Origin: Phenylobacterium sp.
GTDB lineage: Bacteria > Pseudomonadota > Alphaproteobacteria > Caulobacterales > Caulobacteraceae
Direction: 5' to 3'
Length of the DNA: 64,000 nucleotides
NCBI RefSeq assembly: GCF_004299445.1
Contig: NZ_SCTC01000003.1
Span: 62,001 to 126,000 of the forward strand
Shown here: positions 6,562-64,000 of the stretch, piece after piece
How positions within the stretch are numbered: position 1 is the first letter of the stretch
Layout: every line of letters starts with the position of its first letter
Translations under genes and position numbers: made by a program
Notes under the pieces: model-generated
What the model was told of the DNA's origin: nothing
The model's input: the letters and a program-made list of their open reading frames with translations, nothing else
Database searches by the model: none

Positions 6562-8442
6562 TCAGGCCGCATCCAGCTTCACCAGCACCGTGCCCTCGCT
6601 GACCTGGGCGCCCAGCTCGGCGGCGAGGTCGGCGACAACGCCGTCAAAGGGCGCCGTCAGGGCGTGCTCCATCTTCATGGCCTCTAGGGTCAAAAGGGGC
6701 TGGCCCTTGCTCACCCTGTCGCCGGCCTTGACCGACAGGCCCGTGACCTTGCCGGGCATCGGCGCGCGGATGGCCCCGTCGCCGGCCGTGCCGCCCTCGC
6801 CGTCGGCTGCCGGCGGGTGGTCGCGGAAGGTGAAGGCCTCGCCGCCTTCGAACACCACGATCGCCTCGTCGCTTTCGACATGGATGAAGCGGCTGGGCTC
6901 GGCCGGCATCTCGACTTCGAGGGCCTTGTCGCCGTGGAACAGTCGTGTGGTCGTGACCGGGTCGGCGTTGAGGCGGAAGCCCTTGAGCTCCACCCAGGGT
7001 ATGGCCTCGCCCGCACGGCGTTCGACAGCCTCGCGGAACGCCCAGCCGGCGGTGGCAAGCGCCTCTGCCGAAGGCTCGGCGGGGGCCGTGAGGGTCTCCA
7101 TGTCGCGACCGATCAGGCCGGTGTCGATCGAGCCCGCGATGAAGGCGGGAGTCTCCAGGCAGCGGACCAGGAAGCCGGCGTTGGTCTTGACCGGCCAGAC
7201 CTCGACGTCGGCGCAAGCCTCCGCCAGGTCGGCGATCGCCTGGTCGCGGGTGGGCGCGTGCGCGATCAGCTTGGCGATCATGGGGTCGTAGAAGGGCGTG
7301 ATGTGGTCGCCCTCGTCGACGCCCGAGTCCGCGCGGACGTTGGTGGGCAGGCTGAAGCTGGCCAACCGGCCGATGGACGGCAGGAAGCCGGTGGCCGGGT
7401 TCTCGGCATAGAGCCGCGCCTCGACGGCATGGCCGTTCAGGGTGATCTCGTCCTGGGCCAGCGGCAGCGGCTCCCCCGCGGCGACGCGGAACTGCCACTC
7501 GACCAGATCCAGCCCGGTGACCATTTCGGTGACGGGGTGTTCCACCTGCAGGCGGGTGTTCATCTCCATGAACCAGATGCGGTCGCCCTTCAGGCCGTCC
7601 GAAGCGTCGGCGATGAACTCGACGGTGCCGGCGCCCACATAGCCCACGGCCTTGGCGGCCTTCACGGCCGCGTCGGTGACGGCGGCGCGGGTGGCGTCGC
7701 TCATCCCTGGGGCCGGAGCCTCCTCGATAACCTTCTGGTGGCGGCGCTGTAGCGAGCAGTCGCGCTCGAACAGGTGAACGACGTTGCCCTGGCTGTCGCC
7801 AAACACCTGCACCTCGATATGGCGCGGGCGGGTGACGTAGGTCTCCAGCAGCACCCGGTCATCGCCAAAGCTGGCGGCGGCCTCGCGCTGGCATGAGGCG
7901 AGCGCCGCGTCAAAGGCCTCCGCGCTTTCGACCAGCCGCATGCCCTTGCCGCCGCCGCCGGCCACGGCCTTGATCAGCACCGGGAAGCCGATGGCCTCGG
8001 CCTCCTTCTTCAGCCGCGCGGGCGACTGGTCCTCGCCCAGATAGCCGGGCGTGACCGGCACGCCGGCCTTCTGCATCAGATCCTTGGCGGCGTCCTTCAG
8101 GCCCATGGCGCGGATGGCGCTGGGCGGCGGCCCGATCCAGATCAGCCCCGCTGCCATCACCGCCTCGGCGAACTCGGCGTTCTCGGACAGGAACCCATAG
8201 CCCGGATGGATGGCCTCGGCGCCGGCGGCCTTGGCCGCGGCGATCACGCGATCGCCCTTGAGATAGCTGTCCCGCGCCGCGGCCGGCCCGATCAGCACGG
8301 CCTTGTCCGCATCGCGCACGTGGGCGGCGTCGCGGTCGGCTTCGGAGAAGACGGCGACGGTCTCGATATCGAGCCGCCGCGCCGTGGCGAACACCCGCCG
8401 GGCGATCTCGCCCCTGTTGGCGACCAGGACAGAGCGGAACAT
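6562..8442 (-). CDS. mccA: 3-methylcrotonyl-CoA carboxylase, biotin-carrying alpha subunit
   Basis: A 626-residue biotin-dependent carboxylase subunit. The order is biotin carboxylase N-domain (ANRGEIARRVFATARRL), ATP-grasp domain with the glycine-rich GGGGKGMRLV near residue 165, carboxylase C-domain, a linker and a C-terminal biotinyl domain whose EAMKMEH places the biotinylated Lys at about residue 590. It carboxylates biotin with bicarbonate and ATP; the beta subunit then transfers CO2 to 3-methylcrotonyl-CoA in leucine breakdown. Similar proteins serve propionyl-CoA or geranyl-CoA carboxylases, but the companion isovaleryl-CoA dehydrogenase favours the leucine substrate. It is the third gene of a minus-strand operon, separated from the beta subunit by 178 bp that hold an inverted repeat. 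Confidence 0.92.
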   Translation of the reverse strand: MFRSVLVANRGEIARRVFATARRLDIETVAVFSEADRDAAHVRDADKAVLIGPAAARDSYLKGDRVIAAAKAAGAEAIHPGYGFLSENAEFAEAVMAAGLIWIGPPPSAIRAMGLKDAAKDLMQKAGVPVTPGYLGEDQSPARLKKEAEAIGFPVLIKAVAGGGGKGMRLVESAEAFDAALASCQREAAASFGDDRVLLETYVTRPRHIEVQVFGDSQGNVVHLFERDCSLQRRHQKVIEEAPAPGMSDATRAAVTDAAVKAAKAVGYVGAGTVEFIADASDGLKGDRIWFMEMNTRLQVEHPVTEMVTGLDLVEWQFRVAAGEPLPLAQDEITLNGHAVEARLYAENPATGFLPSIGRLASFSLPTNVRADSGVDEGDHITPFYDPMIAKLIAHAPTRDQAIADLAEACADVEVWPVKTNAGFLVRCLETPAFIAGSIDTGLIGRDMETLTAPAEPSAEALATAGWAFREAVERRAGEAIPWVELKGFRLNADPVTTTRLFHGDKALEVEMPAEPSRFIHVESDEAIVVFEGGEAFTFRDHPPAADGEGGTAGDGAIRAPMPGKVTGLSVKAGDRVSKGQPLLTLEAMKMEHALTAPFDGVVADLAAELGAQVSEGTVLVKLDAA

Positions 8443-50023: not shown

Positions 50024-51292
50024 TCAGCGCGCCGCGGGCGAGGCCAGGCCTTCGAACACTGGCCGCACATAGTGCTGCACCACCGTTTCGGGCGACATGC
50101 CGGGGGTCCAGTAGTGCAGCTCAGCCGCGGCGTTGATCGCCGCCGAGATCATCTGGGACGCCACGTTCACATCCACCGGCGCGCAGCTGCCATCGGCCAC
50201 GCCATCGCACAGGATCGAGGCGAAGCGGTACGAGATCCGGTTGAACCGCTGCATCAGTCCGGCCCGCAACGCCTCGGGCACCGCCGTGAGCGCGGAGGTG
50301 CGCAACAGGGGCGCCTCGCCGCTCATCTGGTGCTCGATCAGGGCCGAGACCGTCGAGACCAGCACCTCCAGCCCCGTGCCACCGGCCTGCTCGGCCGCGT
50401 GGATCGCCCGCCACATGGTCTCGAATGTGCGCTCGAAGCAGGCCACCACCAGCTCATCCTTGGTCTGGTTGTGGTGGTAGAAGGCGCCCTTGCTGACATT
50501 GAGCCGCGCAGAAATCCGCTCGACGGAGGCGCCGTGATAGCCCTCCTCGTTGATCAGACAGGTGGCCGCCCGCAGGAACAGCTCAGACGATGAGACGGCG
50601 CCTTCGCAGCGGCGGGCCAGGTCCAGCGGCCGGGGCTCGGGCCAGGGCGATCCCTTGCGGACGACGCCGTGGGTCAGGATCACGGCCATGCGCTCGGCTG
50701 TCCGGGCATAGTCCCCCGGCTCGACCTGATAGTGCCAGGCCGCGATCCAGAACACCTGGCTGAGCAGCAGGTGGGCGCGCGCGTTGCCATGCGGCCGGGG
50801 CAGCGCGTCCGGCCCCGCCAGCAGGCCCCGGAAGCGCCGGAACATGTCGACGTAGGCGGTGTTCACCACCGCGCTGTTCAGCGCGCGCACATCATTGAAC
50901 ACCGGCAGCGGATCGGCGCCGCCCTCGGCCACCCGGCGGGCGTGCTCGAAGTAGGCATGGATAAACGCCGTGAGCCGCGCCACGTCGGTCGGAGCGTCGG
51001 CATGGGCCGCGATCATCGCGTGATAGGCGTCTAGACCTTTCAGGAAGGCGGCGGCGGCCAGCTCTTCCTTGTTCTTGAAGTAGTAGATCACCGCGGTCGG
51101 CACGAGATCGAGGCGGGCGGCCACATCGCCCAGGGTCATGCCCCGCACGCCCTTGCGGTTCATCTCCTCGACGGCGGAGCGGACGATCGCGTTGCGCTTG
51201 GCTTCGTAGCGGCGCGTCGGCGGCCGCCGCGCGGCGTCCGCATCCTCCGCTTGGCTTCCCGACGAAGCCCCATCGCCGACGGCCATTGTCAT
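50024..51292 (-). CDS. Tandem TetR-family regulator (two TetR units in one chain)
   Basis: A 422-residue protein with two complete TetR modules. Residues about 30-205 have NAIVRSAVEEMNRKGVRGMT and DVAARLDLVPTAVIYYFKNK; residues about 235-420 have AATCLINEEGYHGASVERIS and ARLNVSKGAFYHHNQTKDEL. Each module has its own ligand-binding helices. A TetR dimer normally needs two chains, so this protein is probably a single-chain pseudo-dimer able to read an asymmetric operator. It diverges from the CaiB/BaiF CoA transferase gene with 113 bp between starts and probably controls it, by inference from position. Confidence 0.88.
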   Translation of the reverse strand: MTMAVGDGASSGSQAEDADAARRPPTRRYEAKRNAIVRSAVEEMNRKGVRGMTLGDVAARLDLVPTAVIYYFKNKEELAAAAFLKGLDAYHAMIAAHADAPTDVARLTAFIHAYFEHARRVAEGGADPLPVFNDVRALNSAVVNTAYVDMFRRFRGLLAGPDALPRPHGNARAHLLLSQVFWIAAWHYQVEPGDYARTAERMAVILTHGVVRKGSPWPEPRPLDLARRCEGAVSSSELFLRAATCLINEEGYHGASVERISARLNVSKGAFYHHNQTKDELVVACFERTFETMWRAIHAAEQAGGTGLEVLVSTVSALIEHQMSGEAPLLRTSALTAVPEALRAGLMQRFNRISYRFASILCDGVADGSCAPVDVNVASQMISAAINAAAELHYWTPGMSPETVVQHYVRPVFEGLASPAAR

Positions 51293-51405
51293 GCAATCGT
51301 CTTAGCGCGGTTCGCTGTCTGCCTCCATGGCCCCTTCCGTTGGGTCAGTTGTGGCGAGCCCAGTGGGCGGCTAGGTGTCGAACAACAAGTACGGGAAGGA
51401 TCGCC

Positions 51406-52575
51406 ATGCTGCTCCAGGGTCTGAAGGTGGTGGAAATGTCCACCTGGGTGGCGGGCCCCAGCTGCGCGGCGGTGCTGGCCGACTGGGGCGCCGAGGTCAT
51501 CAAGGTCGAAAGCCCGATGGGCGACGTCACCCGCGCCTTCTTCGCCAATCCCGAGAACGGCCAGAGCCCGATCTACGCCAACGAGAACCGCGGCAAGAAG
51601 GGCGTGGTGCTCGACACTACCAAGCCCGAGGGCAGGGCCGCGCTGAAGAAGCTGCTGAAGGACGCCGACATCTTCGTCACCAACACGCGACCCGGGTCTC
51701 TAAAGAAGATCGGCCTCGACTATGAGACGCTGAAGCCCGAGTTCCCCAAGCTGATCTACGCCGCCGTCACCGGCTTCGGCCTGACCGGCCCCTGGGCCAA
51801 CGAAGGCGGCTTCGACATCACCGCCTTCTGGGCGCGCAGCGGCGTGGCCCGCGCCATGATCCCCACCGACCAGGAGCCGTTCGCGTCCAGGCCAGGCTTC
51901 GGCGACCACGTGACCGCGATAACCACCGTCGCCGGCATCCTGGCGGCGGTGCATGAGCGGCATTCGACCGGGAAGGGCCGCCTCGTGGAGACCAGCCTGC
52001 TGCGCGCCGGCAGCTATGCGATCAGCTGGGACCTGTCGCTCCAGCTCTACTATGGCGAGGTGCAGACCAACGGGCCGCGCGACGAGCGGCCGGTCGCGAT
52101 CTCGGGCTTCTTCCGCACCAAGGACGACCGACACCTCGTCATCGTGCCCAAGAACGTGAACTGCTTCACGAACGTGATGATCGCTATCGATCGGCCGGAG
52201 GTGGTCGCCGACCCACGCTTCGAGATTCCCATGCTCGATATGGACGTGGTGCGCGAGGCTCGCGCCATCTGCGACGAGGGCTTTGCCCGGTTCACGCTGG
52301 AGGAGATCGGCGAGCGCCTGAACGAACTGGACGTCGCCTGGGGCCCGCTGGGCACGCTGGCCGAACACGCCGCGTCCGAGCGGGCCGAGCTCGCGGGCTG
52401 CTTTGTCGAGCTGGAAGACGGCCTGGGCGGCCGCTTCCGGGCCCCCGCAACGCCCGTGCGTTTCCCCGAGGGCGCGCCGCCCGTGGGCGCCGCCGCCCCG
52501 CAACTGGGCCAGCACACGCGTGAGGTCCTCGAAGCGGCCGGTCTGACCCCCGAGGAGATCGCCGCCGTTATCTAG
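51406..52575 (+). CDS. CaiB/BaiF-family (class III) CoA transferase
   Basis: A 389-residue enzyme starting at MLLQGLKVVEMSTWVAGPSC (ATG 51406, GGAAGGA upstream). Class III hallmarks are LADWGAEVIKVESPMGDVTR near residue 27, ANENRGKKGVVLDTTKPEGR near 58 and GLTGPWANEGGFDITAFWAR near 125, where the Asp of GFD is the catalytic residue that forms an acyl-aspartyl intermediate. The C-terminus (LGQHTREVLEAAGLTPEEIA) is typical. It moves CoA between carboxylic acids such as bile, carnitine or dicarboxylic types; the substrate is not deducible. Its neighbour on the other side of a terminator is the convergent uracil phosphoribosyltransferase. Confidence 0.92.
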   Translation: MLLQGLKVVEMSTWVAGPSCAAVLADWGAEVIKVESPMGDVTRAFFANPENGQSPIYANENRGKKGVVLDTTKPEGRAALKKLLKDADIFVTNTRPGSLKKIGLDYETLKPEFPKLIYAAVTGFGLTGPWANEGGFDITAFWARSGVARAMIPTDQEPFASRPGFGDHVTAITTVAGILAAVHERHSTGKGRLVETSLLRAGSYAISWDLSLQLYYGEVQTNGPRDERPVAISGFFRTKDDRHLVIVPKNVNCFTNVMIAIDRPEVVADPRFEIPMLDMDVVREARAICDEGFARFTLEEIGERLNELDVAWGPLGTLAEHAASERAELAGCFVELEDGLGGRFRAPATPVRFPEGAPPVGAAAPQLGQHTREVLEAAGLTPEEIAAVI

Positions 52576-52794: not shown

Positions 52795-53436
52795 TCATCG
52801 GGTGCCGTACATCCGGTCGCCCGCGTCTCCCAGCCCAGGCAGGATGTAGCCGTGGTCGTTCAACCGCTCATCCACCGCCGCGGTCCAGACCGGGACGTCG
52901 GGGTGATGGCCGTGGAATTTGGACACGCCCTCGGGCGAGGCCAGCAGGCAGGCCATACGGATCTGCCTGGCGCCGGCCTCCAGCAGCCGGTCGACGGCGG
53001 CGATAGCCGTGTTGCCGGTGGCCAGCATCGGATCCACCACAACGACGACCCGCTCGGCCAGGTCGGCGGGGGCCTTGAAGTAGTATTCCACGCAGTTCAG
53101 CGTCGCCGGGTCACGGTAGAGGCCGATGTGGGCGACGCGGGCGGCGGGCGCCAGTTCCAGCATCCCGTCCAGCATGCCCATGCCCGAGCGCAACACCGGG
53201 GCGAACACCAGCTTCTTCCCGGCCAGCTGCGGCGCCTGCATCACCTGCAGCGGGGTCTCGATCTCGACCAGCTCCACCGGCAGGTCGCGGGTGACCTCGT
53301 AGCAGAGCAGCGCGCCGATCTCGCGCAGCAGCTCGCGGAAGCTCTTGGTGGACGTGTCCTTCTTCCGCATCAGCGTCAGCTTGTGCTGCACCAGCGGGTG
53401 GTCGACGACCGTGACGCCCTTCATGGCTCGAGCCAT
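52795..53436 (-). CDS. upp: Uracil phosphoribosyltransferase (URC6-type context)
   Basis: A 213-residue PRTase starting at [14 protein letters not shown] (ATG 53436-53434, GAGGG upstream). Signatures are [20 protein letters not shown] near residue 8, [20 protein letters not shown] near 78, the PRPP loop [20 protein letters not shown] near 126 and the uracil-binding end [17 protein letters not shown]. It converts uracil and PRPP to UMP. It is the last gene of a three-gene unit with DUF1688 and GTP cyclohydrolase II-like genes, as in URC uracil-degradation loci, where this activity feeds ring opening rather than salvage. Only 13 bp separate it from the upstream gene. Confidence 0.95.
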
Positions 53437-53449
53437 CCTGCGTATCCCT

Positions 53450-54616
53450 CTAGAAAACCGTTCCGTCCGAGATGACGGCGATGGGCGGACCACCGTCCGC
53501 CCGCTTCTGCTTCGCGATCCGCCGGCCCGCGGCCCAGGAGCCGCCCTCCAGCACCCGCGCCAGCGGGAACTCGGCCGCGGTGAGGCCCAGCCGCTCGCGC
53601 ACCATCGGCGCCAACCTGTCCAGCAAGGCCACTGTCAGCGACCGCCAGCCCACGACCAGCGGACTGTCGACAGCGTGCGCCCGATCGGCGTCCGCCGGGT
53701 CCTTCACCGTGAGCACGCCCATGTCCACGAACAGACCGCCGTTGCGGTACTCGGCCAGGCCCGTGAGCCCGTCGATGTCGGTGACCTCGACGCCGGCCCA
53801 CTGCAGCGGCTCGATCAGCGAGTAGCTCATCCACTGGCTCAGCTTGTGCAGCGGCACGTAGCCATCGACGGCCGGATGCTTCCAGCAGTCGCCCAGCGGC
53901 TGACCGTCCAGCGACAGGCGCCCAGGCCAGATCGGCCCCAGCGCTTCCAGCAGCACGCGCAGAATCGTCGGCGCCGGCAACTTTCCGCCCTCGGCGTGCT
54001 TCACCATGATGTCGAACAGCGCCGCCGGCCGGCCCACCGCGCGGCCCAGGCTGCGCAGCAGCTCGGCGCGCCCCTCAAGGCCCACCATCGGGTTGTCGTC
54101 GCGGACCTGGAAGTGCTGGGCCACGCCCGCCGCCGTCACCTGCTCCAGCGCATCGGCCTTCATCGGATCGCCGGGATCGGACGACATCGCGCCAGCCTCG
54201 AACATCCGCAGCGAGGCGATGCCCAGGCCCTCGGATCGGCCGACGGTGACGCCGGTGGCCGCGTCCGCGTAGCGCCAGGTCGGCCCTGCGCCCGCGTCCA
54301 GCAGCACCGACGGGATCACGAGGTCGAACGCGGCACGACCCAATTCCATAGGATCGGATGGCTTGTCCGCCTCGGCCCACAGATCGCGCCCGTCCGCCAC
54401 GAACATCCGCCAGCGGGCATGGAACGGGACCTTGAGGTCGGGGTAGTTCGCGCACACCGTCTCGGCCGTCAGGTCCGCCGCCGCCTCCAGCCGTGACAGG
54501 TCCACCGCCCATTCGGCCAATCCGCCCGCCTCGGCCAGCGCCAGCATCTGGTGGGCGCGCTCGCGCACTGCGGCGGCGGAGAGAAGCCGGCGCGCCGTCT
54601 CAACGTGGGTCGACAA
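53450..54616 (-). CDS. URC4/Urg3-family protein (DUF1688), uracil catabolism
   Basis: A 388-residue DUF1688 protein. Its start is TTG (54616-54614), directly after the TAG of the upstream gene, with AAGGA 8 nt before it. Conserved stretches include [20 protein letters not shown] near residue 58, [20 protein letters not shown] near 103, [16 protein letters not shown] near 127 and [20 protein letters not shown] near 290. The family is required in the fungal URC pathway of uracil breakdown and is found next to GTP cyclohydrolase II-like and uracil phosphoribosyltransferase genes in bacteria, as here. The exact reaction is not settled. DAGAGPTW and RSEG are likely parts of its active site. Confidence 0.9.
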
Positions 54617-55873
54617 CTAGAATTCCTTCAGATCCCGGCCCACGACCTTCTTCAGGTCGTCCTCGGAGGGCGCGCCCTCGGGCGTGAAGTAGCCGGCGGC
54701 CTTCTTGGCTTCCATCTCGACGCTGGCGTCGTCCGGCACCAGCTCGTCGGGGATCGGCACCCGCTCGCCGATCTCGATGCCGCCGGTCACCAGGGCGTCG
54801 TACTTCATGTTGGACATCGAGACGAAGCGGTCGATCCGGCGGATGCCCAGCCAGTGGATCACGTCGGGCATCAGCTGCTGGAAGCGCGCGTCCTGGACAC
54901 CCGCCACGCACTCGGTGCGTTCGAAATAGGTGGCCGCCTGGTCGCCGCCCGGCTGACGCTTGCGGGCGTTATAGACCAGGAACTTGGTCACCTCGCCCAG
55001 CGCGCGGCCTTCCTTGCGGTTGTAGGCGATGAGGCCCGTGCCGCCGGCCTGGGCCGAACGCGTCGCCTCCTCGATCCCGTGGGTCAGGTAGGGCCGGCAG
55101 GTGCAGATGTCGGAGCCGAAGACGTCCGAGCCGTTGCACTCGTCGTGCACCCGGCAGGTCAGCGGCACGCGAGTATCGCCCAGCTTCGTGGCGTCGCCGA
55201 AGATGTAGAGCGTGATGCCCCCGATCGGCGGCAGGAACACCTGGATGTCGGGGCGGGTGACCAGTTCGGGGTACATGCCGCCCGTCTGTTCGAACAGCAC
55301 GCGGCGCAGCTGCTGCTCCTCCACGCCGAACCGGGCGGCGACGCCCGGCAGATGCCAGACGGGATCGATCGCGGCCTTCGTCACGGCCACGTCGCCGGTT
55401 TCGTACAGCACCTTGCCGTCGGGCTTCAGCCGGCCGGCGCGGATGGCCTCGGCGATCTCGGGCAGGGTGATGCGGGCCTTGGTCACCGCGATGGTCGGGC
55501 GGATATCGACGCCCTCGGCGATCTCGGCGGCGAAGTCCTCGGCGATGCGCGCGCCCCAGGGATCGAGCGAGACGATCTTGCCGGGCTCGCTCCACTGGGG
55601 GTGCGGGCCCACCGGCACCACCGGATGGGTGTTCACCAGTTCGGGCCGGACCATCGGGTCCATGGCGCCGGAGGCGACGGCCAGTGCGCGGTAGACCGAA
55701 TAGGCGCCGCCGTGGGCGCCGATGGCGTTGCGGTCGCTGCCCGCGTTGGCGGTGGCCACGACAGGGCCGCGCTCGCGGGCGGTCTTGGCGTCCCAGTTCA
55801 GCGGGAACCGGCTGGGCGTTCCCGCCCCCGGATGCGACGTGAGGCGGATGTGGGATGTCCTGTTCCCGGACAT
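54617..55873 (-). CDS. URC1-type GTP cyclohydrolase II-like protein, uracil catabolism
   Basis: A 418-residue protein starting at MSGNRTSHIR (ATG 55873-55871, GGAGG 13 nt upstream); a TTG four codons earlier is too close to that site. The C-terminal half is the GTP cyclohydrolase II fold: RVHDECNGSDVFGSDICTC gives the zinc motif C-x10-C-x-C, and TGLIAYNRKEGRALGEVTKF near residue 275 the catalytic region. The N-terminal 200 residues are specific to the URC1-type family (GAHGGAYSVYRALAVASGAM). In the URC route this enzyme opens the uracil-derived ring, so the product is not riboflavin precursor. It heads the unit URC1-URC4-upp. Confidence 0.92.
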   Translation of the reverse strand: MSGNRTSHIRLTSHPGAGTPSRFPLNWDAKTARERGPVVATANAGSDRNAIGAHGGAYSVYRALAVASGAMDPMVRPELVNTHPVVPVGPHPQWSEPGKIVSLDPWGARIAEDFAAEIAEGVDIRPTIAVTKARITLPEIAEAIRAGRLKPDGKVLYETGDVAVTKAAIDPVWHLPGVAARFGVEEQQLRRVLFEQTGGMYPELVTRPDIQVFLPPIGGITLYIFGDATKLGDTRVPLTCRVHDECNGSDVFGSDICTCRPYLTHGIEEATRSAQAGGTGLIAYNRKEGRALGEVTKFLVYNARKRQPGGDQAATYFERTECVAGVQDARFQQLMPDVIHWLGIRRIDRFVSMSNMKYDALVTGGIEIGERVPIPDELVPDDASVEMEAKKAAGYFTPEGAPSEDDLKKVVGRDLKEF

Positions 55874-55902
55874 AGGCGTGAACAAACCTCCAGAGTCGAA
55901 AA

Positions 55903-55940
55903 GGCCCCGCCCGGGTCTTCGCCGGCGCAGGGCCTTTGAG
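55903..55940. other. Stem-loop in the 5' leader of the URC1 gene
   Basis: AAAGGCCC (55903-55910) pairs with GGGCCTTT (55933-55940), and inner GC-rich bases (CGCCCGGG, CCGGCG) can pair further. It lies 30-67 bp upstream of the URC1 start in the transcribed direction, and on the minus strand the stem ends CCTTTTCG. It might act as an attenuator or as the end of upstream transcription. Confidence 0.4.
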
Positions 55941-56077
55941 GGCGAACACTGATCCTAGTCCGCGGAATTGGCAACATTTCCTGAACCCGCGAGGTCCCAG
56001 AGACGCGCGGCGTCTGGACTGCGCCCTTGCCCTGAGCTCCGCCATGGTCGCCAATGGACGCGGCAGAGGAGACGGGC

Positions 56078-56464
56078 ATGCAAAGCCACCTGAAGGACCT
56101 GGAAGAGGTCCGCGAGCTCATCCAGCTCTACATCGACGGGTCCAACGGCGACGTCGCCAAGCTGCAGGCCGCATTCCATCCGGATGCCCGGATGATGGGC
56201 CATGTGGGTCCGATGGACACCTACATCCCGATCACCGATTTCTTCAAAATGGTCGAGCGCCAGCCGGGCCTGGCCGGGCCGAACTACAACGCCTACGTCC
56301 GCAACATCGACCTGGCGGGCGACGCCGGCGTCGCGGTGCTGGTCGAGACCGACTACATGGGCTGCGATTTCGTCGACTACTTCTCCGTCGCGAAGATCGG
56401 CGGGCGCTGGCAGATCACCAACAAGACCTACGCCCATACAGGCGGAACGCCGCCCGGAGCCTGA
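56078..56464 (+). CDS. NTF2-like protein, putative lumazine-binding type
   Basis: A 128-residue protein starting at MQSHLKDLEEVRELIQLYID (ATG 56078, GAGGAG upstream); the frame opens earlier at 56054. The NTF2-like cone is seen in GSNGDVAKLQAAFHPDARMM near residue 21, VGPMDTYIPITDFFKMVERQ near 43 and FVDYFSVAKIGGRWQITNKT near 98. This pattern fits the putative lumazine-binding family (PF12893). No catalytic Asp-His dyad is obvious. It stands between the URC unit and the urease operon, transcribed towards urease. A link to the ring-opening chemistry next door is possible but only positional. Confidence 0.78.
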   Translation: MQSHLKDLEEVRELIQLYIDGSNGDVAKLQAAFHPDARMMGHVGPMDTYIPITDFFKMVERQPGLAGPNYNAYVRNIDLAGDAGVAVLVETDYMGCDFVDYFSVAKIGGRWQITNKTYAHTGGTPPGA

Positions 56465-56466
56465 AA

Positions 56467-56512
56467 GGCGGCGGCGCCCAAAAAACCGGCGCCCGCGATT
56501 GACGCCGCCGCC
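56467..56512 (+). other. Stem-loop between the NTF2-like gene and ureD
   Basis: GGCGGCGGCG (56467-56476) and CGCCGCCGCC (56503-56512) are exact inverse complements around a 26-nt loop, starting 2 bp after the NTF2-like stop. TTGACGC inside the right flank (56499-56505) matches a Caulobacter-type -35, so the site may combine a transcript end with the urease promoter. Confidence 0.4.
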
Positions 56513-56561
56513 GGGGCCGTCGTTGTCTGGACACCTCCGGGGACCACCGCAGGGTGTGTCG

Positions 56562-57395
56562 ATGATTCAGGGTCCTGCTTCGCTGCCCGACCTGCCCGTC
56601 CTGCAAAGGGCGCGCGGCTGTGCGCGGATCGCCGTGCGGGGCGAAGCCGGTCGCACGCGGCTCTCACGGCTGTACCAGGAGGGCTGCGGCAAGATCCGCC
56701 TGCCCAAGGACGCCCGCGCCGAAGGACTCGAAGCGGTGCTTATCAACACCTCCGGCGGCCTGACGGGCGGCGACCGGATGGACTGGGCTGCCGAGGCCGT
56801 CGACGGCGCGCGCCTCACCCTCACCACCCAGGCCTGCGAGAAGATCTACCGCGCCCGCGACGGTGTGGCCGAGGTCGCCACCCGCCTGGACGTGGGCCAG
56901 GGCGGCCGGGTCGACTGGCTGCCACAGGAGACGATCCTGTTCGACGGCGGCGCGTTGTCTCGCCGCCTCGAGGCCGACCTGGCGCCGGGCGCACGCCTGC
57001 TGGCGTTGGAAGCCGTCGTCCTGGGCCGCACGGCCATGGCCGAGACGGTCCGGGTGGGCGCGCTGCGCGACCGCTGGCGGGTCCGCACTGAAGGCCGCCT
57101 GATCTTCGCCGACGACCTTCGCCTCGACGGCCCGATCGCCGACCGCGCCGCCATGGCGCCCATGCTGGCCGGCGCCCGGGCCTTCGCCTCCCTGCTGCTG
57201 GTGGACGCCGAGGCCGGCCGCCTCCTGGAGCCCCTGCGGGCCGCACTGGGCCCCGCGGGCGGCGCCAGCGCCTTCGACGGCAAACTGTTCGCCCGCGTGA
57301 CCGCTGCCGACGGGTTCGCGCTCCGCCATGTGCTGCTGCCGGCGCTCAGCGTCCTGCGCAACGGCGCGCCACTGCCCCGGGTCTGGAGCACCTGA
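56562..57395 (+). CDS. ureD: Urease accessory protein UreD
   Basis: A 277-residue urease chaperone (UreH/UreD family) starting at [14 protein letters not shown] (ATG 56562). Conserved blocks are [20 protein letters not shown] near residue 35, [20 protein letters not shown] near 57, [14 protein letters not shown] near 90 and [20 protein letters not shown] near 120. It docks on the urease apoenzyme with UreF and UreG and passes nickel through an internal tunnel. It is the first gene of the operon; its TGA overlaps the ureA ATG by one base. Confidence 0.93.
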
Positions 57396-57697
57396 TGAAC
57401 CTGACCCCGCGCGAGAAAGACAAGTTGCTGGTGGCCATGGCCGCCGAGGTCGCGCGCAAGCGCCTGGCCCGCGGCGTGAAACTGAACCATCCCGAGGCCA
57501 TCGCCCTGATCACCGACTTCGTCGTCGAGGGCGCTAGAGACGGCCGCACGGTGGCCGAGCTGATGGAAGCCGGGGCCCACGTGATCAGCCGCGCCCAGGT
57601 CATGGAAGGCATCGCCGAGATGATCCACGACGTGCAGGTCGAGGCCACATTTCCCGACGGCACCAAACTGGTGACCGTCCACCACCCGATCAGATGA
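57395..57697 (+). CDS. ureA: Urease gamma subunit
   Basis: A 100-residue subunit, the normal length. [20 protein letters not shown] and [20 protein letters not shown] open the protein; [20 protein letters not shown] and [10 protein letters not shown] close it, as in all UreA proteins. It forms part of the (UreABC)3 core that hydrolyses urea to ammonia and carbamate in the cytosol. Its final TGA overlaps the ATG of the small HupE/UreJ-like gene (ATGA), rather than ureB as in most operons. Confidence 0.97.
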
Positions 57698-57915
57698 GGA
57701 GACTCCGGTTGCGCAGACTTTTGCCTGCCCTGATGGCCCTTACGGCCACCCCCGCCCTGGCCCACGAGGGCCACCACGAGACGCTGACGCTGGCCGAACA
57801 GGCGCGGCACCTGCTGACCGAGCCCGACCACATCCTGGCCTTTGCAGGCCTCGTCGTGCTGGCTGTCGCGGGCGCCTGGCAGTGGCGGCGGGCTCGCGCG
57901 AAGGCGCGCAAGTGA
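57694..57915 (+). CDS. Miniature HupE/UreJ-like protein inside the urease operon
   Basis: A 73-residue protein whose ATG overlaps the ureA stop and whose TGA overlaps the ureB start; an in-frame TTG at 57709 with AGGAGA upstream is an alternative start. A signal peptide ends at ALA (residue 23), leaving the mature N-terminus [15 protein letters not shown] at 39-46 is H-x5-D-H, the signature of HupE/UreJ nickel permeases, and continues into one membrane helix ([18 protein letters not shown]) with a basic tail (RRARAKARK). Full HupE/UreJ proteins have about 190 residues and six helices, so this would be only the first unit. I infer a periplasmic nickel-binding or assembly component of the urease system. 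Confidence 0.8.
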
Positions 57916-58216
57916 TCCCCGGCGAGGTCATCCCGGCCGATGGCGACATCGAGCTGAACGCCGGCGCGCCGGTCACGGTGCTGCGCGTAGCCAACACGGG
58001 TGACCGGCCCATCCAGGTGGGCAGCCACTACCATTTCTTCGAGACCAACCCGGCGCTGCGGTTCGACCGGGCCGCAGCCCGCGGCCAGCGCCTCGATATC
58101 GCCGCCGGCACGGCCGTCCGCTTCGAGCCTGGACAGGAGCGCGAGGTGTCGCTCGTGCCGCTGGCGGGCCGCCGCGAGGTCTACGGCTTCCGCCAGGACG
58201 TGATGGGCAAGGTCTG

Positions 58217-58217
<1 letters not shown>
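57912..58217 (+). CDS. ureB: Urease beta subunit
   Basis: A 101-residue subunit. The GTG at 57912 overlaps the preceding TGA (GTGA) and begins [18 protein letters not shown], the normal N-terminus; the upstream open frame is not used. [20 protein letters not shown] near residue 32 and [15 protein letters not shown]-like ending ([14 protein letters not shown]) are invariant features. It packs against UreA and UreC in the urease core. Its stop overlaps the ureC ATG by one base. Confidence 0.97.
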
Positions 58218-59916
<1,699 letters not shown>

Positions 59917-59920
<4 letters not shown>

Positions 59921-60372
59921 CCACCATCACCGACATCCTGCCCGCGGGGGCCTGGACAGGCGACGCCGCCGACAGCGTGACGCTGGACTACGACGGGCGT
60001 CACCGCCGCCGCATCATGCTCACCGGGGCCTCGGGCTCGGAGTATCTGCTGGACCTGGCGGAGGCGACGCATCTCCGCCACGGCGATGGCCTGCAGCTTC
60101 CCGGAGGCGGCGTGATCCAGGTTGTGGCCAAGGCCGAGCCGCTGCTGGAAGTCACCGCCCATTCGCCGGCAGATCTCCTGCGCCTGGCCTGGCACATCGG
60201 CAACCGCCATCTGGCCGCCCAGGTGTTCCCCGACCGTATCCTGATCCGCCGCGACCACGTGATCGCCCAGATGCTCGAGCACCAGGGCGCGCACGTCCGC
60301 GAAATCGAGGCGCCGTTCGACCCAGAAGGCGGCGCCTATCAAGAGCATGGAGGGCATTCACATGCCCACTGA
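59917..60372 (+). CDS. ureE: Urease accessory protein UreE
   Basis: A 151-residue nickel metallochaperone; the TTG start (59917) overlaps the ureC stop as TTGA. The N-terminal peptide-binding domain is followed by the metal-binding domain, with [20 protein letters not shown] near residue 87 providing the conserved His and [17 protein letters not shown] near 115. The tail [13 protein letters not shown] is His-rich, adding nickel capacity. It delivers Ni2+ to UreG. Its 3' end overlaps ureF by 11 bp. Confidence 0.93.
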
Positions 60373-61018
60373 AGCGCGCCTGCTGCGCCTTCTGACCTGG
60401 CTGTCGCCGGCGTTCCCAACCGGCGCATTCGGTTTCTCGCACGGACTGGAGACGGCGATCCGCGAAGGGACCGTCAGCGACGTCCGCTCGCTCACCGGCT
60501 GGATCGCAGGGCTGATGGAGCACGGCTCGGCCTGGAGCGACGCGGTGCTGGCCAAGGCCGCCTGGACCGCCGTCACCGCCGAGGACCACGTGGCGCTGGA
60601 TGACGTGGCCGAGCTGGCCGAGGCCCTCTGTCCATCGCTGGAACGGCGCAAGGAGACGATGAGCCAGGGTGAGGCGTTCCTGAAGGCGGTCGCCGCCTGG
60701 AACCCGCCGCCGATCCTGAGCGCGCCCTATCCGGTGGCGCTGGGCGCGGCGGCCGGCGCAGCAGGGTTGCCACTCGAGCCGGCGCTGACCGCGTGGCTGC
60801 ACGCCTTCGGCGCGAACCTCGTGAGCGTCGCCGTCCGCGCCGTGCCGCTGGGCCAGTCCGACGCCCTGCAGGTGTTGGCCGCCCTCGAGCCCGTGATCAT
60901 CCGCACCGCCAAGCGCGCGGCCGCCTCCACGCTGGACGAGCTCGGCTCGGCCAGTCTTGTTTCCGACATCGCCAGCATGCGCCACGAGACCCTGGACGGA
61001 AGGTTGTTCGGCTCATGA
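60362..61018 (+). CDS. ureF: Urease accessory protein UreF
   Basis: A 218-residue helical protein starting at [20 protein letters not shown] (ATG 60362, GAGGG upstream), with the family motif [20 protein letters not shown] near residue 15. The C-terminal [17 protein letters not shown] contains the Arg-rich end that contacts UreG. It acts as a gate between UreD and UreG during nickel loading. The coding sequence overlaps ureE by 11 bp at its start and ureG by 4 bp (ATGA) at its end. Confidence 0.93.
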
Positions 61019-61650
61019 GCACCTCCTCCAGCAATGGGCCTCTGCGCGTCGGCATCGGCGGCCCGGTCGGCTCGGGCAAGACCACGCTGGTGGAGAAGCT
61101 CTGCAAGGCCATGCGCGACCGCTGGTCGATCGCGGTCGTCACCAACGACATCTACACCCAGGAAGACGCCCTGATCCTGGCCCGCCTCCAGGCCCTCCCA
61201 GAGGACCGCATCCTGGGCGTCGAGACGGGCGGCTGCCCGCATACCGCCATCCGCGAGGACGCCTCGCTGAACCTGGCGGCTATCGCCGACATGAACCGCC
61301 GCCACCCCGGCCTGGACGTGATCTTCATCGAGAGCGGCGGCGACAACCTGGCGGCCACCTTCAGCCCAGACCTGGCCGACCTGACGCTCTATGTGGTCAG
61401 CGTCTGCCAGGGCGAAAAGATTCCCCGCAAGGGCGGCCCGGCCATCACCCGCTCGGACCTCCTGATCATCAACAAAACCGACCTGGCCCCGCACGTCGGC
61501 GCGGACCTGTCGGTGATGGACTCCGACGCGAGGAAGCAGCGTGGCGAGCGCCCGTTCGTGTTCACCGACCTGACGCGGCAGTCGGGGCTGGATGAGGTGA
61601 TCGCGTTCCTCGCGAAGGCGGGCGGCTTGCCGACGGCGCGGGCGGCCTAG
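61015..61650 (+). CDS. ureG: Urease accessory GTPase UreG
   Basis: A 211-residue SIMIBI-class GTPase. [20 protein letters not shown] near residue 14 is the P-loop, [18 protein letters not shown] near 69 contains the Cys-Pro-His nickel site, [20 protein letters not shown] near 102 is the switch region, and [14 protein letters not shown] near 150 is the guanine-specificity motif NKTD. GTP hydrolysis drives nickel insertion into urease. The stop codon overlaps that of the convergent allantoicase gene by 4 bp (CTAG). Confidence 0.97.
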
Positions 61651-62633
61651 CGCACCACCTTGCCCATCAGCCGCAGCCGGCTGACGCCGCCGTCGGGAAA
61701 GATGTTCAGGCGTACAAACCGCACCGGGCCCAGCGCGGCGAGCTCGTCGCGGAAGGTGTGCACGTGGTCGGCCTGCAGCTTCACCTCGGGCAGCAGCACC
61801 GGCCAGCTGTGGGCCTGCTCTGCGATCTCCGCCGGCGACCCGTGCGCCCGCCGCGTCGCCTGGATCGAGCAGCGGTCGGGGTAGTTGCCTTTGAAGTGGG
61901 CCGTGTCGACGATGACCTCTTCGATCGTCCCGAAGGTTCCCAGTTCCAGCACCGCCCAGTCGTGACCCGGCTCGCGCCGCCGCCGCGTCTCCCAGCCGTC
62001 GCCCATGTTCACGCCGCGGCCCGGCACCGTCAGATTGCCGACCGCGCCATAGTGCTCGTCGTTGGCGATGATGCCGCGGCCGCCGCGCGCGACAGCCAGC
62101 AGGTCCACGACCTCGTCGAGGCCCACCTTCGTCCAGTCGGGATCGACCCGGCCCCAGACCCGCAACCGCGCCACGCCGCCGTCCGGATGGATATGCAGCC
62201 GTACATGGGTGATCGGGGTGTCGTGCTCCACAGGGAAGTAGATCCGATCGTCGCCCTTCAGCGACAGGCGGCCGGTGACGTTGACCCAGCCGGCCTCCGG
62301 GTTCACCTCGTCCGAACGGCACACCTCGATTTCGGCGCCGGGCGGGTAGTTGCCGGTGAAGTGGCTGGTGTCGATCTCGAAGCCGGCGACCACGCCCGCG
62401 ACGCCCAGGCGGATGACGCACCAGTCGTGGCCAGGCGTGCGCTTTCGGCGGCTCTCCCAGCCGTCCATCCACTTGCCGTTGTCGTCGTACTTGCCGGGGA
62501 TGAACACCGGCGGCGCGGGGTCGATGAGCCGGCTCTTGTCGGCGAAGAAATCGTCGGTGGCGTAGACGACTTCGCTGCCCAGGCGCGGCTGGGCGAGGTC
62601 CACATATTGGCGGCGCAGGTCGTCGAAGATCAT
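61647..62633 (-). CDS. alc: Allantoicase
   Basis: A 328-residue enzyme with two similar jelly-roll halves: [20 protein letters not shown] near residue 103 and [20 protein letters not shown] near 247, each preceded by a GHDW-type segment ([24 protein letters not shown]). It hydrolyses allantoate to ureidoglycolate and urea. The N-terminus ([20 protein letters not shown]) and the C-terminal [15 protein letters not shown] are standard. Its urea product would be taken by the urease encoded right beside it. It is in a run with OHCU decarboxylase and allantoinase genes, the last gene of that unit. Confidence 0.94.
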
Positions 62634-62642
62634 GAGCCCACT

Positions 62643-63092
62643 CTACAACAGGTCTGCGAGACGAAAGCCTGCGATCCGGTGGATCTGGGCGATCGCCGTC
62701 TCGAATTCGGTCTCGGGATCGTTCGTCAGCCGCGCCTCGAAGGCGGCCAGGATTTCGGCGCGCGTGGCGCCCTTCACGGCATAGATGAAGGGGAACCCGA
62801 AGCGGGCGTTGTAGGCGGCGTTCAGGCGCTGGAAAGCGTCGAACTCTGCGGGCGTGCACTGGTCGAGACCAACGCCCGCCTGCTCCTTCACGGACGCCTC
62901 CGCCATCTTGGCGCGGGTGGCCAGTTCCGGGTGCGCCCGGATCAGCGCCAGCTTCCGTTCGCGGGGCGCAGCGTCGACCGCTGCGCGCATGGCGCCCGCC
63001 AGATCCTCCGGCGGCGGCCAGCAGGCCTCCGCGACCCACTGGGAATGCTCGTAGACGCCGCCATACCGGCTCAGGAATTCGTCGCGGGTCAC
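62643..63092 (-). CDS. uraD: OHCU decarboxylase
   Basis: A 149-residue all-helical enzyme. FLSRYGGVYEHSQWVAEACW near residue 6 contains the catalytic His within the family's first block, LALIRAHPELATRAKM near 49 is the AHP motif, and ARFGFPFIYAVKGATRAEIL near 95 is the FPFI substrate motif. It converts 2-oxo-4-hydroxy-4-carboxy-5-ureidoimidazoline to S-allantoin in uric-acid breakdown. Its start overlaps the preceding hydrolase gene's stop by 4 bp, and alc follows 9 bp later. The urate oxidase and HIU hydrolase are not in the window. Confidence 0.93.
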   Translation of the reverse strand: MTRDEFLSRYGGVYEHSQWVAEACWPPPEDLAGAMRAAVDAAPRERKLALIRAHPELATRAKMAEASVKEQAGVGLDQCTPAEFDAFQRLNAAYNARFGFPFIYAVKGATRAEILAAFEARLTNDPETEFETAIAQIHRIAGFRLADLL

Positions 63093-63892
63093 GACGACGC
63101 CTTCGCGAAAGCGCCCCGGAACACCTCGACCACCCGCGTACTGGCCGCCGCCGCCGCTCGCGGATCGAATTCGAACCGCACCGGACCGCCCTTGCCATTG
63201 TGAGCGTAGGGGTCGTGGATCGTCTTGGACGGCATGTCGCGGTCGAAGGCGTGGGTGGCCCCCGGATGGACCACCAGCTCCACATGCGCCCGGTCGGCCG
63301 CCGCCAATCCGCCCAGGAACGCGTCGCAGACCTCCGGCGTGTCGTAGGCGTCCGCGGCCCCAGCGTGGATCAGCAGCGGCGCGCCGGTCAGGTCGCGCAG
63401 CTCATGGCCCGGCGCGCGATTATAGCTCCACAGCACGGGATAGAAGGCCGCGTGGGCCGCGAACCGCAGGCCCGGCGGGGCCAGGGCGTCCGCGTAGCGC
63501 CGCGTGGCGCTGAGCACGCTGACCACCCCGCCCCACGAGAAGCCCATGATCGCGATGCGGGCGGCATCGACCTCGGGCTGGCGCGCCAGAAACGCCAGCG
63601 CGGCAAAGGCGTCCGGCAGGGTCTCCGGCACGGTCTTCGGCCGCCCCGCCGCGCCGCGCGTCGTCCCGCGGGCCGCCCACATGTCCAGCTCCAGCGTCGC
63701 GAAGCCCGCCGCGTGCAGCGCCCGTGCGTGGTAGCGGCCCCGCGCGTCGACCCCGTCCGACCCATGGCAGATCACCACCGCCGGCACGGGCGCGATCGCC
63801 TCATCCGATGTCGGCACGTCCAGCCGCGCGGCCACCGTCAGCGGCGGCTCGGCCCCGGTTTCGAACGCCACGTAGCAGGTGCGGAAGTCCAT
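63089..63892 (-). CDS. Dienelactone hydrolase family protein
   Basis: A 267-residue alpha/beta hydrolase. VVICHGSDGVDARGRYHARA near residue 40 forms the oxyanion loop, AIMGFSWGGVVSVLSA near 118 the nucleophile elbow with Ser in place of the Cys of classical dienelactone hydrolases, GAPLLIHAGAADAYDTPEVC near 172 the acid, and VVHPGATHAFDRD near 213 the His. No signal peptide is seen. It lies between the allantoinase fragment and uraD, with overlapping or nearly overlapping ends, so it belongs to the uric-acid unit. Whether it acts on a ureide or lactone intermediate is unknown; its placement in purine loci makes that plausible. Confidence 0.85.
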   Translation of the reverse strand: MDFRTCYVAFETGAEPPLTVAARLDVPTSDEAIAPVPAVVICHGSDGVDARGRYHARALHAAGFATLELDMWAARGTTRGAAGRPKTVPETLPDAFAALAFLARQPEVDAARIAIMGFSWGGVVSVLSATRRYADALAPPGLRFAAHAAFYPVLWSYNRAPGHELRDLTGAPLLIHAGAADAYDTPEVCDAFLGGLAAADRAHVELVVHPGATHAFDRDMPSKTIHDPYAHNGKGGPVRFEFDPRAAAAASTRVVEVFRGAFAKASS

Positions 63893-63895
63893 GAT

Positions 63896-64000
63896 CTAGG
63901 CCTCGTACGGATGCGTGGCGCGCCAGTGCCGCGCGATGTCGATGCGGCGGCAGAACCAGACGTCCTGATGACTCAGCGCGTGGCGGATGAACCGCTCCAG
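63896..64000 (-). CDS. puuE: Allantoinase (PuuE-type polysaccharide deacetylase family), 3' end only
   Basis: Thirty-four final codons are visible before the stop at 63898-63896. They read RFIRHALSHQDVWFCRRIDI followed by ARHWRATHPYEA, which matches the C-terminus of PuuE-type allantoinases, where the segment after the last helix reads similarly (DVWFARRxDIARHW). The downstream hydrolase ATG lies 3 bp after it. Allantoinase makes allantoate, the substrate of the nearby allantoicase. The rest is outside the window, so the assignment rests on the tail and context. Confidence 0.75.
   Translation of the reverse strand: MERFIRHALSHQDVWFCRRIDIARHWRATHPYEA

Follow-up and report, generated by a model that had tools for sequence, protein, structure and literature searches.

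A probable nucleobase-to-ammonia island in a Phenylobacterium-clade bacterium, with uracil and purine breakdown genes on either side of one urease

The URC pathway of Lachancea kluyveri and the urg cluster of Schizosaccharomyces pombe bring together Urc1, Urc4 and uracil phosphoribosyltransferase (UPRT). In two published accounts, the nitrogen-bearing product of this pathway is urea (PMC7530994, PMC3869809). Yeast removes that urea by urea amidolyase, whereas in the DNA described here a urease operon adjoins the URC genes and purine catabolism lies in the same island. The DNA is a 64,000-nucleotide stretch of Phenylobacterium sp. (assembly GCF_004299445.1, contig NZ_SCTC01000003.1), called the window; it spans C7:62001-126000, where C7 denotes contig coordinates, in a genome of 4.9 Mb and 95 contigs. 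We consider it probable that the locus is a nucleobase-to-ammonia island in which the urea from both ring systems enters a single urease. Gene identities come from Pfam and NCBIfam profile searches; for the island genes we infer activities, flux and co-regulation.

The window carries genes for Urc1, Urc4 (DUF1688) and UPRT together as a minus-strand unit, and the profiles bear out the earlier note on this DNA in that respect. The putative GTP-cyclohydrolase-II-like uracil-nucleotide ring opener, urc1 (54617-55873, minus strand), matches GTP_CH_N and GTP_cyclohydro2, and reaches 747 bits with NF005536/PRK07198 against a cut-off of 403. Its start is most likely the ATG at 55873, replacing the listed TTG at 55885 (open reading frame, ORF, 54617-55885). 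By phmmer, residues 10-419 match PDB entries 7ej3/7eev (E 7e-187), named GTP cyclohydrolase II in the PDB, which we assume to be those of the UTP cyclohydrolase paper of Zhang et al. 2021. Cysteines C250, C261 and C263 (numbering of the 422-residue ORF) are invariant across 14 sequences. In sequence, the window Urc1 resembles the bacterial Urc1/UTP cyclohydrolase over its full length, with the cysteines conserved. The adjoining urc4 (53450-54616, minus strand; DUF1688, 425.9 bits) encodes a predicted Qng1/DUF2419-like N-glycosylase. It is followed by upp (52795-53493, minus strand; PF14681, with TIGR01091 over cut-off), the UPRT gene in the Urc6 role, whose true start may lie near 53424.

Divergent from this unit, ureDABCEFG (56562-61650, plus strand) provides a complete nickel urease set, ureABC with D, E, F and G, in agreement with the earlier note. 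The genes are ureD (56562-57395; PF01774), ureA (57395-57697; PF00547), ureB (57882-58217; PF00699), ureC (58217-59920; PF00449, PF01979), ureE (59917-60372; PF05194, PF02814), ureF (60347-61018; PF01730) and ureG (61015-61650; PF02492), the starts of ureD and ureG having been set in the gene-order survey described below. Converging on the urease from the minus strand, also as previously noted, are alc for allantoicase, urea-releasing by profile (61647-62633; TIGR02961 over cut-off), OHCU decarboxylase (62643-63092; TIGR03164 over cut-off), a DLH-family hydrolase (63089-63892; PF01738) and an allantoinase tail. The tail is the 3' end of puuE (63896-64000; TIGR03212 over cut-off), which extends outside the window to C7:126807. 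The earlier note had placed the steps of urate oxidation elsewhere, which is wrong, as they follow directly past the window edge. HIU hydrolase (C7:126928-127254) is succeeded by xdhA, xdhB, xdhC and a PuuD-type urate oxidase (Urate_ox_N), then by ureidoglycolate lyase (allA; C7:133145-133606), guanine deaminase (guaD), a xanthine/uracil-family permease and an adenosine-deaminase-family gene below the NCBIfam cut-off. By profile, one stretch holds every gene needed to take guanine to glyoxylate and urea. This is the same full gene set as in the aerobic purine ureide route (PuuD, PuuE, allantoicase, urease), here joined to URC in this clade.

The genome has one full ureC match (E 6e-58), located between the two urea-forming blocks. 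A second match to the ureC profile elsewhere covers 45 positions (25.7 bits, E 4e-5) and is nominally over the 23-bit cut-off; we read it as a distant amidohydrolase and discount it. Urea carboxylase (TIGR02712) and allophanate hydrolase (TIGR02713) gave matches below cut-off only, as in most of 14 control genomes. With one convincing ureC and neither of these enzymes over cut-off, urease is the sole known urea sink found in this genome; a yeast-like urea amidolyase was not found there, and urease is present instead. This layout fits one urease that would serve both ring systems. We propose that UPRT charges uracil to UMP, which goes onward to UTP, that Urc1 would then open the pyrimidine ring of the uracil nucleotide, and that Urc4, with its predicted Qng1/DUF2419 glycosylase fold, could cleave the N-glycosidic bond and release urea. 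In parallel, purines would pass through guanine deaminase, XdhABC, PuuD, HIU hydrolase, OHCU decarboxylase, PuuE, allantoicase and ureidoglycolate lyase and end as glyoxylate and urea. Both urea streams would then reach the urease between the blocks and become ammonia and carbon dioxide. The significance of the locus is that a bacterial form of URC has urease and a complete purine route as its neighbours, and the nitrogen of both rings could thus exit by one enzyme.

The distribution of this arrangement was followed in a gene-order survey of 35 URC loci, with DNA fetched up to about 10 kb on each side, and in named loci, limited to the 80 best among at least 579, with distant taxa outside the set and many of the contigs short; the survey as a whole stays within the Pseudomonadota. 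In nearly all of the 35 loci urc1, urc4 and upp are neighbours, and the trio recurs across the Pseudomonadota loci fetched. Urease adjoins urc1 in five surveyed genomes (G259, G429, G406, G409 and G410), all of the same genus, and in six of the best 80 named loci (L076-L079, L081, L082), two of which repeat G409 and G429. Seven of those 80 have a Urc1 91-94% identical to that of the window (five Phenylobacterium, one Caulobacteraceae and one Alphaproteobacteria record). A Urc1 tree of 112 rows, built by a quick method, places the urease-linked loci in one 12-row clade (SH-aLRT 99) of ten linked members, G399 and P. kunshanense (L080). Duplicates were dropped from the tree and from the leader set discussed below (L076, equal to L072; L077, equal to L070; L084, equal to L067), and L075 (G408) is absent from the tree because tblastn split its Urc1 match. 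The recurrence of urc1-urc4-upp, together with urease beside urc1 in 10 of the 12 clade members, argues that the island is more than chance. As far as our searches reach, the URC-purine-urease arrangement is new and its component pathways are known; a literature search, with most subscription papers outside its reach, found no paper on URC beside urease.

The arrangement apparently has one origin in one clade, and relatives suggest how it arose. G408 and G424, of the same genus and outside the linked set, have a purine-urease block whose genes follow one another in the same order and direction, without URC: xdh, hiu, puuE, ohcu, alc and ureG to ureD, with puuD and allA also in G408, the G424 contig ending in xdhB. 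In both genomes, and in G412, urc1 lies divergent beside guaD. In the genome of the window the block is flanked by guaD at the allA end and by urc1 at the ureD end; it looks as if it had been set between them, and a ready-made purine-urease block probably came to lie there. The opposite course is possible, in which the block left an ancestral island and settled at another site. Two clade members have departed from the layout. In G399, alc and urc1 are about 0.55 kb apart, and a full ureC match is absent from the whole assembly (270 contigs, 96% complete). In P. kunshanense, of the urease genes ureF alone is found at the URC locus, as a remnant 60% identical and adjoined by two glycosyltransferase genes, and ureC was not found. 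Since both lie inside the clade, urease has probably been lost twice with URC retained.

It is possible, if doubtful, that no function ties URC to the purine-urease block, that one rearrangement made them neighbours and that their closeness is inherited synteny. The arrangement occurs in one clade only among the loci examined, and none of the 24 URC loci outside the genus has urease genes within the fetched DNA (one locus of only 5 kb). URC-urease adjacency is therefore no general rule: the earlier note had proposed a survey of genomes for urc1 next to urease, and that neighbourhood occurs in 10 of 12 Phenylobacterium clade members and, within the fetched DNA, in none of the 24 loci beyond the genus. 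Moreover, caiB and a double-TetR gene, which have no evident link to the pathway, are also retained beside upp in most of the same loci. Conversely, both blocks yield urea, the sole convincing ureC lies between them, and URC adjoins a nucleobase gene, guaD, in G408, G412 and G424 as well.

Further observations bear on a shared urease outlet, several of them unfavourably. Confined to one clade, the layout may persist as plain synteny. DUF1688 occurs in 26 of 398 genomes of the phylum sample and in 11 of 60 relatives, all 11 of the genus (the genome of the window being counted in both). In the genus, ureC is present in 8 of 12 URC-positive and 1 of 26 URC-negative genomes (Fisher 8e-5, kinship uncontrolled). 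Without the linked clade the figures become 2/5 and 1/26 (p = 0.06), and seven of the 26 URC-negative genomes are less than 90% complete or more than 5% contaminated. The phylum sample gives 23/26 against 122/372 (p 2e-8), uncorrected for kinship. At E below 1e-40, the threshold for presence, ureC is found in 29 of 36 URC-positive genomes. The seven others are G399, G412, G417, G428, G119, G256 and G373, among which G428 alone has a urea carboxylase over cut-off; allophanate hydrolase, searched in 10 of the 36, exceeds its cut-off only in G424 and G428. Six of the 36 genomes thus show neither urease nor urea carboxylase over cut-off, and URC seems able to persist without a known urea sink. The earlier proposal that urease replaces the amidolyase as urea sink is accordingly supported by sequence for the genome of the window, where one ureC is convincing and neither urea carboxylase nor allophanate hydrolase exceeds its cut-off, and is too broad as a rule, given the 24 loci and these six genomes. 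In addition, no gene was identified for the three-carbon product of uracil.

A second possible route for uracil is offered, judging by profiles, by the nearby Rut genes. RutB and RutA exceed their curated cut-offs at C7:140912-142754 (912-2754 of L004, which like L003 is a stretch past the window edge), RutA beginning 25 kb from urc4. With RutAB in the same neighbourhood, uracil need not go via urea alone. Of the Rut pathway, RutA and RutB are shared; the other rut genes (RutC-RutG) were not seen among the neighbouring ORFs scanned, no genome-wide search having been made. RutA and RutB share their run with a LOG-type and a GST-like gene, a hydrolase that matched weakly and a TonB receptor gene. 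RutA is present in 10 of the 12 URC-positive genus members, and in six island-clade genomes it shares a contig with urc4, at a distance of about 17-27 kb. That uracil is degraded mainly via Rut here, with URC serving, for example, to remove excess UTP or pyrimidine analogues and its urea excreted or recycled as a side effect, would suit these matches and the six genomes that retain URC with no sink found, but it is clearly unlikely given the rut genes missing from the scanned ORFs and the coexistence of URC and Rut in most URC-bearing genus members, so that neither replaces the other.

Natural contrasts for tests of the pathway are at hand: most clade members have urease at this site, two lack it there, and some relatives have URC although no sink was found in them. 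Among the 17 genomes behind named loci (completeness not stated), ureC was found in seven; in P. kunshanense and nine others it was not found, and urea carboxylase was not searched there. The Brevundimonas-named loci L087, L089, L090, L092, L094 and L101 have URC and gave a negative ureC search.

In our judgement, the wider value of the case lies in the Urc4 fold and in a leader element of urc1. The predicted model of Urc4 matches the fold of Qng1 (queuosine-5'-monophosphate N-glycosylase, DUF2419), with 16-18% identity. This shared predicted fold is not accompanied by profile membership: Pfam at E 0.001 gave DUF1688 alone. The Urc4 profile had zero matches among PDB sequences up to E 10, and the best hit of a single-sequence search had E 0.09, to unrelated chains. 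Mutated positions named in Qng1/DUF2419 PDB titles are K199 and D231. In Urc4, the residues K258, E289 and D298 are invariant. The fold match suggests concrete, testable chemistry for Urc4, whose Pfam label is still 'protein of unknown function'. We tentatively advance a joint claim, rather unlikely to hold as a whole. In its first part, Urc4 would be an N-glycosylase that acts on nucleotides, has the queuosine-phosphate glycosylase as its sister and a DNA-glycosylase-like core, and releases urea once the ring of the uracil nucleotide has been opened. In its second part, a terminator in the 5' leader would control the urc operon in many Alphaproteobacteria, with read-through when there is ample UTP, which is presumed to be the substrate of Urc1.

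The leader element is a terminator-like hairpin (55888-55939, minus strand) between a promoter-like box and the Shine-Dalgarno sequence. TTGCCA occurs upstream of urc1 in all 12 clade members, followed by GGATCA in 11 (L071 being the exception); these boxes may be the promoter. After them, clade leaders carry AAAGGCCCTG...CAGGGCCTTTT or a close variant, and then the Shine-Dalgarno sequence. At the same position, complementary arms of other sequence and with varying loop lengths are found in Caulobacter, Bosea, Methylobacterium, Methylocystis, a Xanthobacteraceae record and others; no hairpin is evident in Brevundimonas or Roseomonas-type leaders. Of the features of an intrinsic terminator, a hairpin at this position is conserved in part of the lineages, and a U run is clear only in some.

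The leader set comprised 113 leaders, those running off a contig being excluded. In an alignment of 18 from Phenylobacterium/Caulobacter (15 distinct; L071 and L079 were left out for a tandemly repeated 3' arm), 94% of cells pair and covariation is 0.190 against 0.126 when shuffled (0/500 as high); just three pairs change on both sides, and 23/500 shuffles are as high. The window, L003, L004 and 94 of 115 URC loci made up the 97 sources searched with covariance models. The model from the 18 leaders finds L067 (P. aquaticum), outside the model, directly before urc1 (E 2e-8). Another 44 loci, all outside the model, gave 63 matches up to E 5; 12 of these, each in a different locus, lie on the strand of urc1 and no more than 100 bases ahead of it, where chance would place 0.3% of matches. 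Single E-values here are weak (best 0.002 before urc1, and down to 0.009 elsewhere). Among 50 representative leaders below 88% Urc1 identity, 19 have a folding z below -2, compared with 3 for a stretch lying farther from urc1 on the upstream side (Wilcoxon p 2e-5), and 31 fail to reach it. For the window, the full leader reaches z -1.7 only, 10 of 200 shuffles being equally good. Variable loop length and G-U pairs favour an RNA element over a protein operator. We propose a simple attenuator, with the hairpin as a candidate switch: since Urc1 presumably consumes UTP, read-through at high UTP would be apt for this operon. In the predicted fold of the window, the Shine-Dalgarno sequence pairs with a CCUC ahead of the hairpin, which would make translation control an alternative to attenuation. 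No Rfam family names the hairpin at gathering score, and DUF3800-VIII (21.7 bits, E 0.43) was taken as chance. Elsewhere in the window, 6682-6731 (minus strand) weakly matches the leader model (16.5 bits, E 0.07).

Other features surround the main blocks. Between urc1 and ureD lies an NTF2/lumazine-binding-like ORF (56054-56464, plus strand; PF12893), rejected as a missing URC step, as it occupies this place only in L078 and L080 among the other 11 distinct clade loci. The DLH hydrolase is accessory and inconstant: tblastn did not find it in the purine-urease blocks of G408 and G424, and a role as stand-in for HIU hydrolase or ureidoglycolate lyase was rejected because the island has both ordinary enzymes. 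A match to the Rfam 5_ureB_sRNA (window 58368-58653, minus strand) is antisense to the 5' part of ureC and recurs in five of seven clade loci scanned; it may reflect merely conserved coding sequence. No extra gene conserved beside URC across lineages was general, so that candidate was rejected, and no Urc1 was found in viral contigs. In Microvirga and relatives, ABC-transporter parts and a metalloenzyme-superfamily gene, which we read as phosphopentomutase-like, recur beside URC; five Caulobacteraceae loci have an adenosine-deaminase-family gene there. Immediately 3' of upp lies a suhB/MmgR-type small RNA (RF00519; 52578-52660, minus strand; 42.9 bits, gathering score 41), also present in three of seven clade loci scanned (L065, L082, L071). 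The double-TetR protein (two TetR_N stretches) and the CaiB-type CoA-transferase, retained beside upp in most clade loci, occupy window 50024-52575. Past the window edge, a Pycsar-effector-type protein (PF18967; L003:14301-14894, minus strand) is encoded close to the adenosine-deaminase-family gene.
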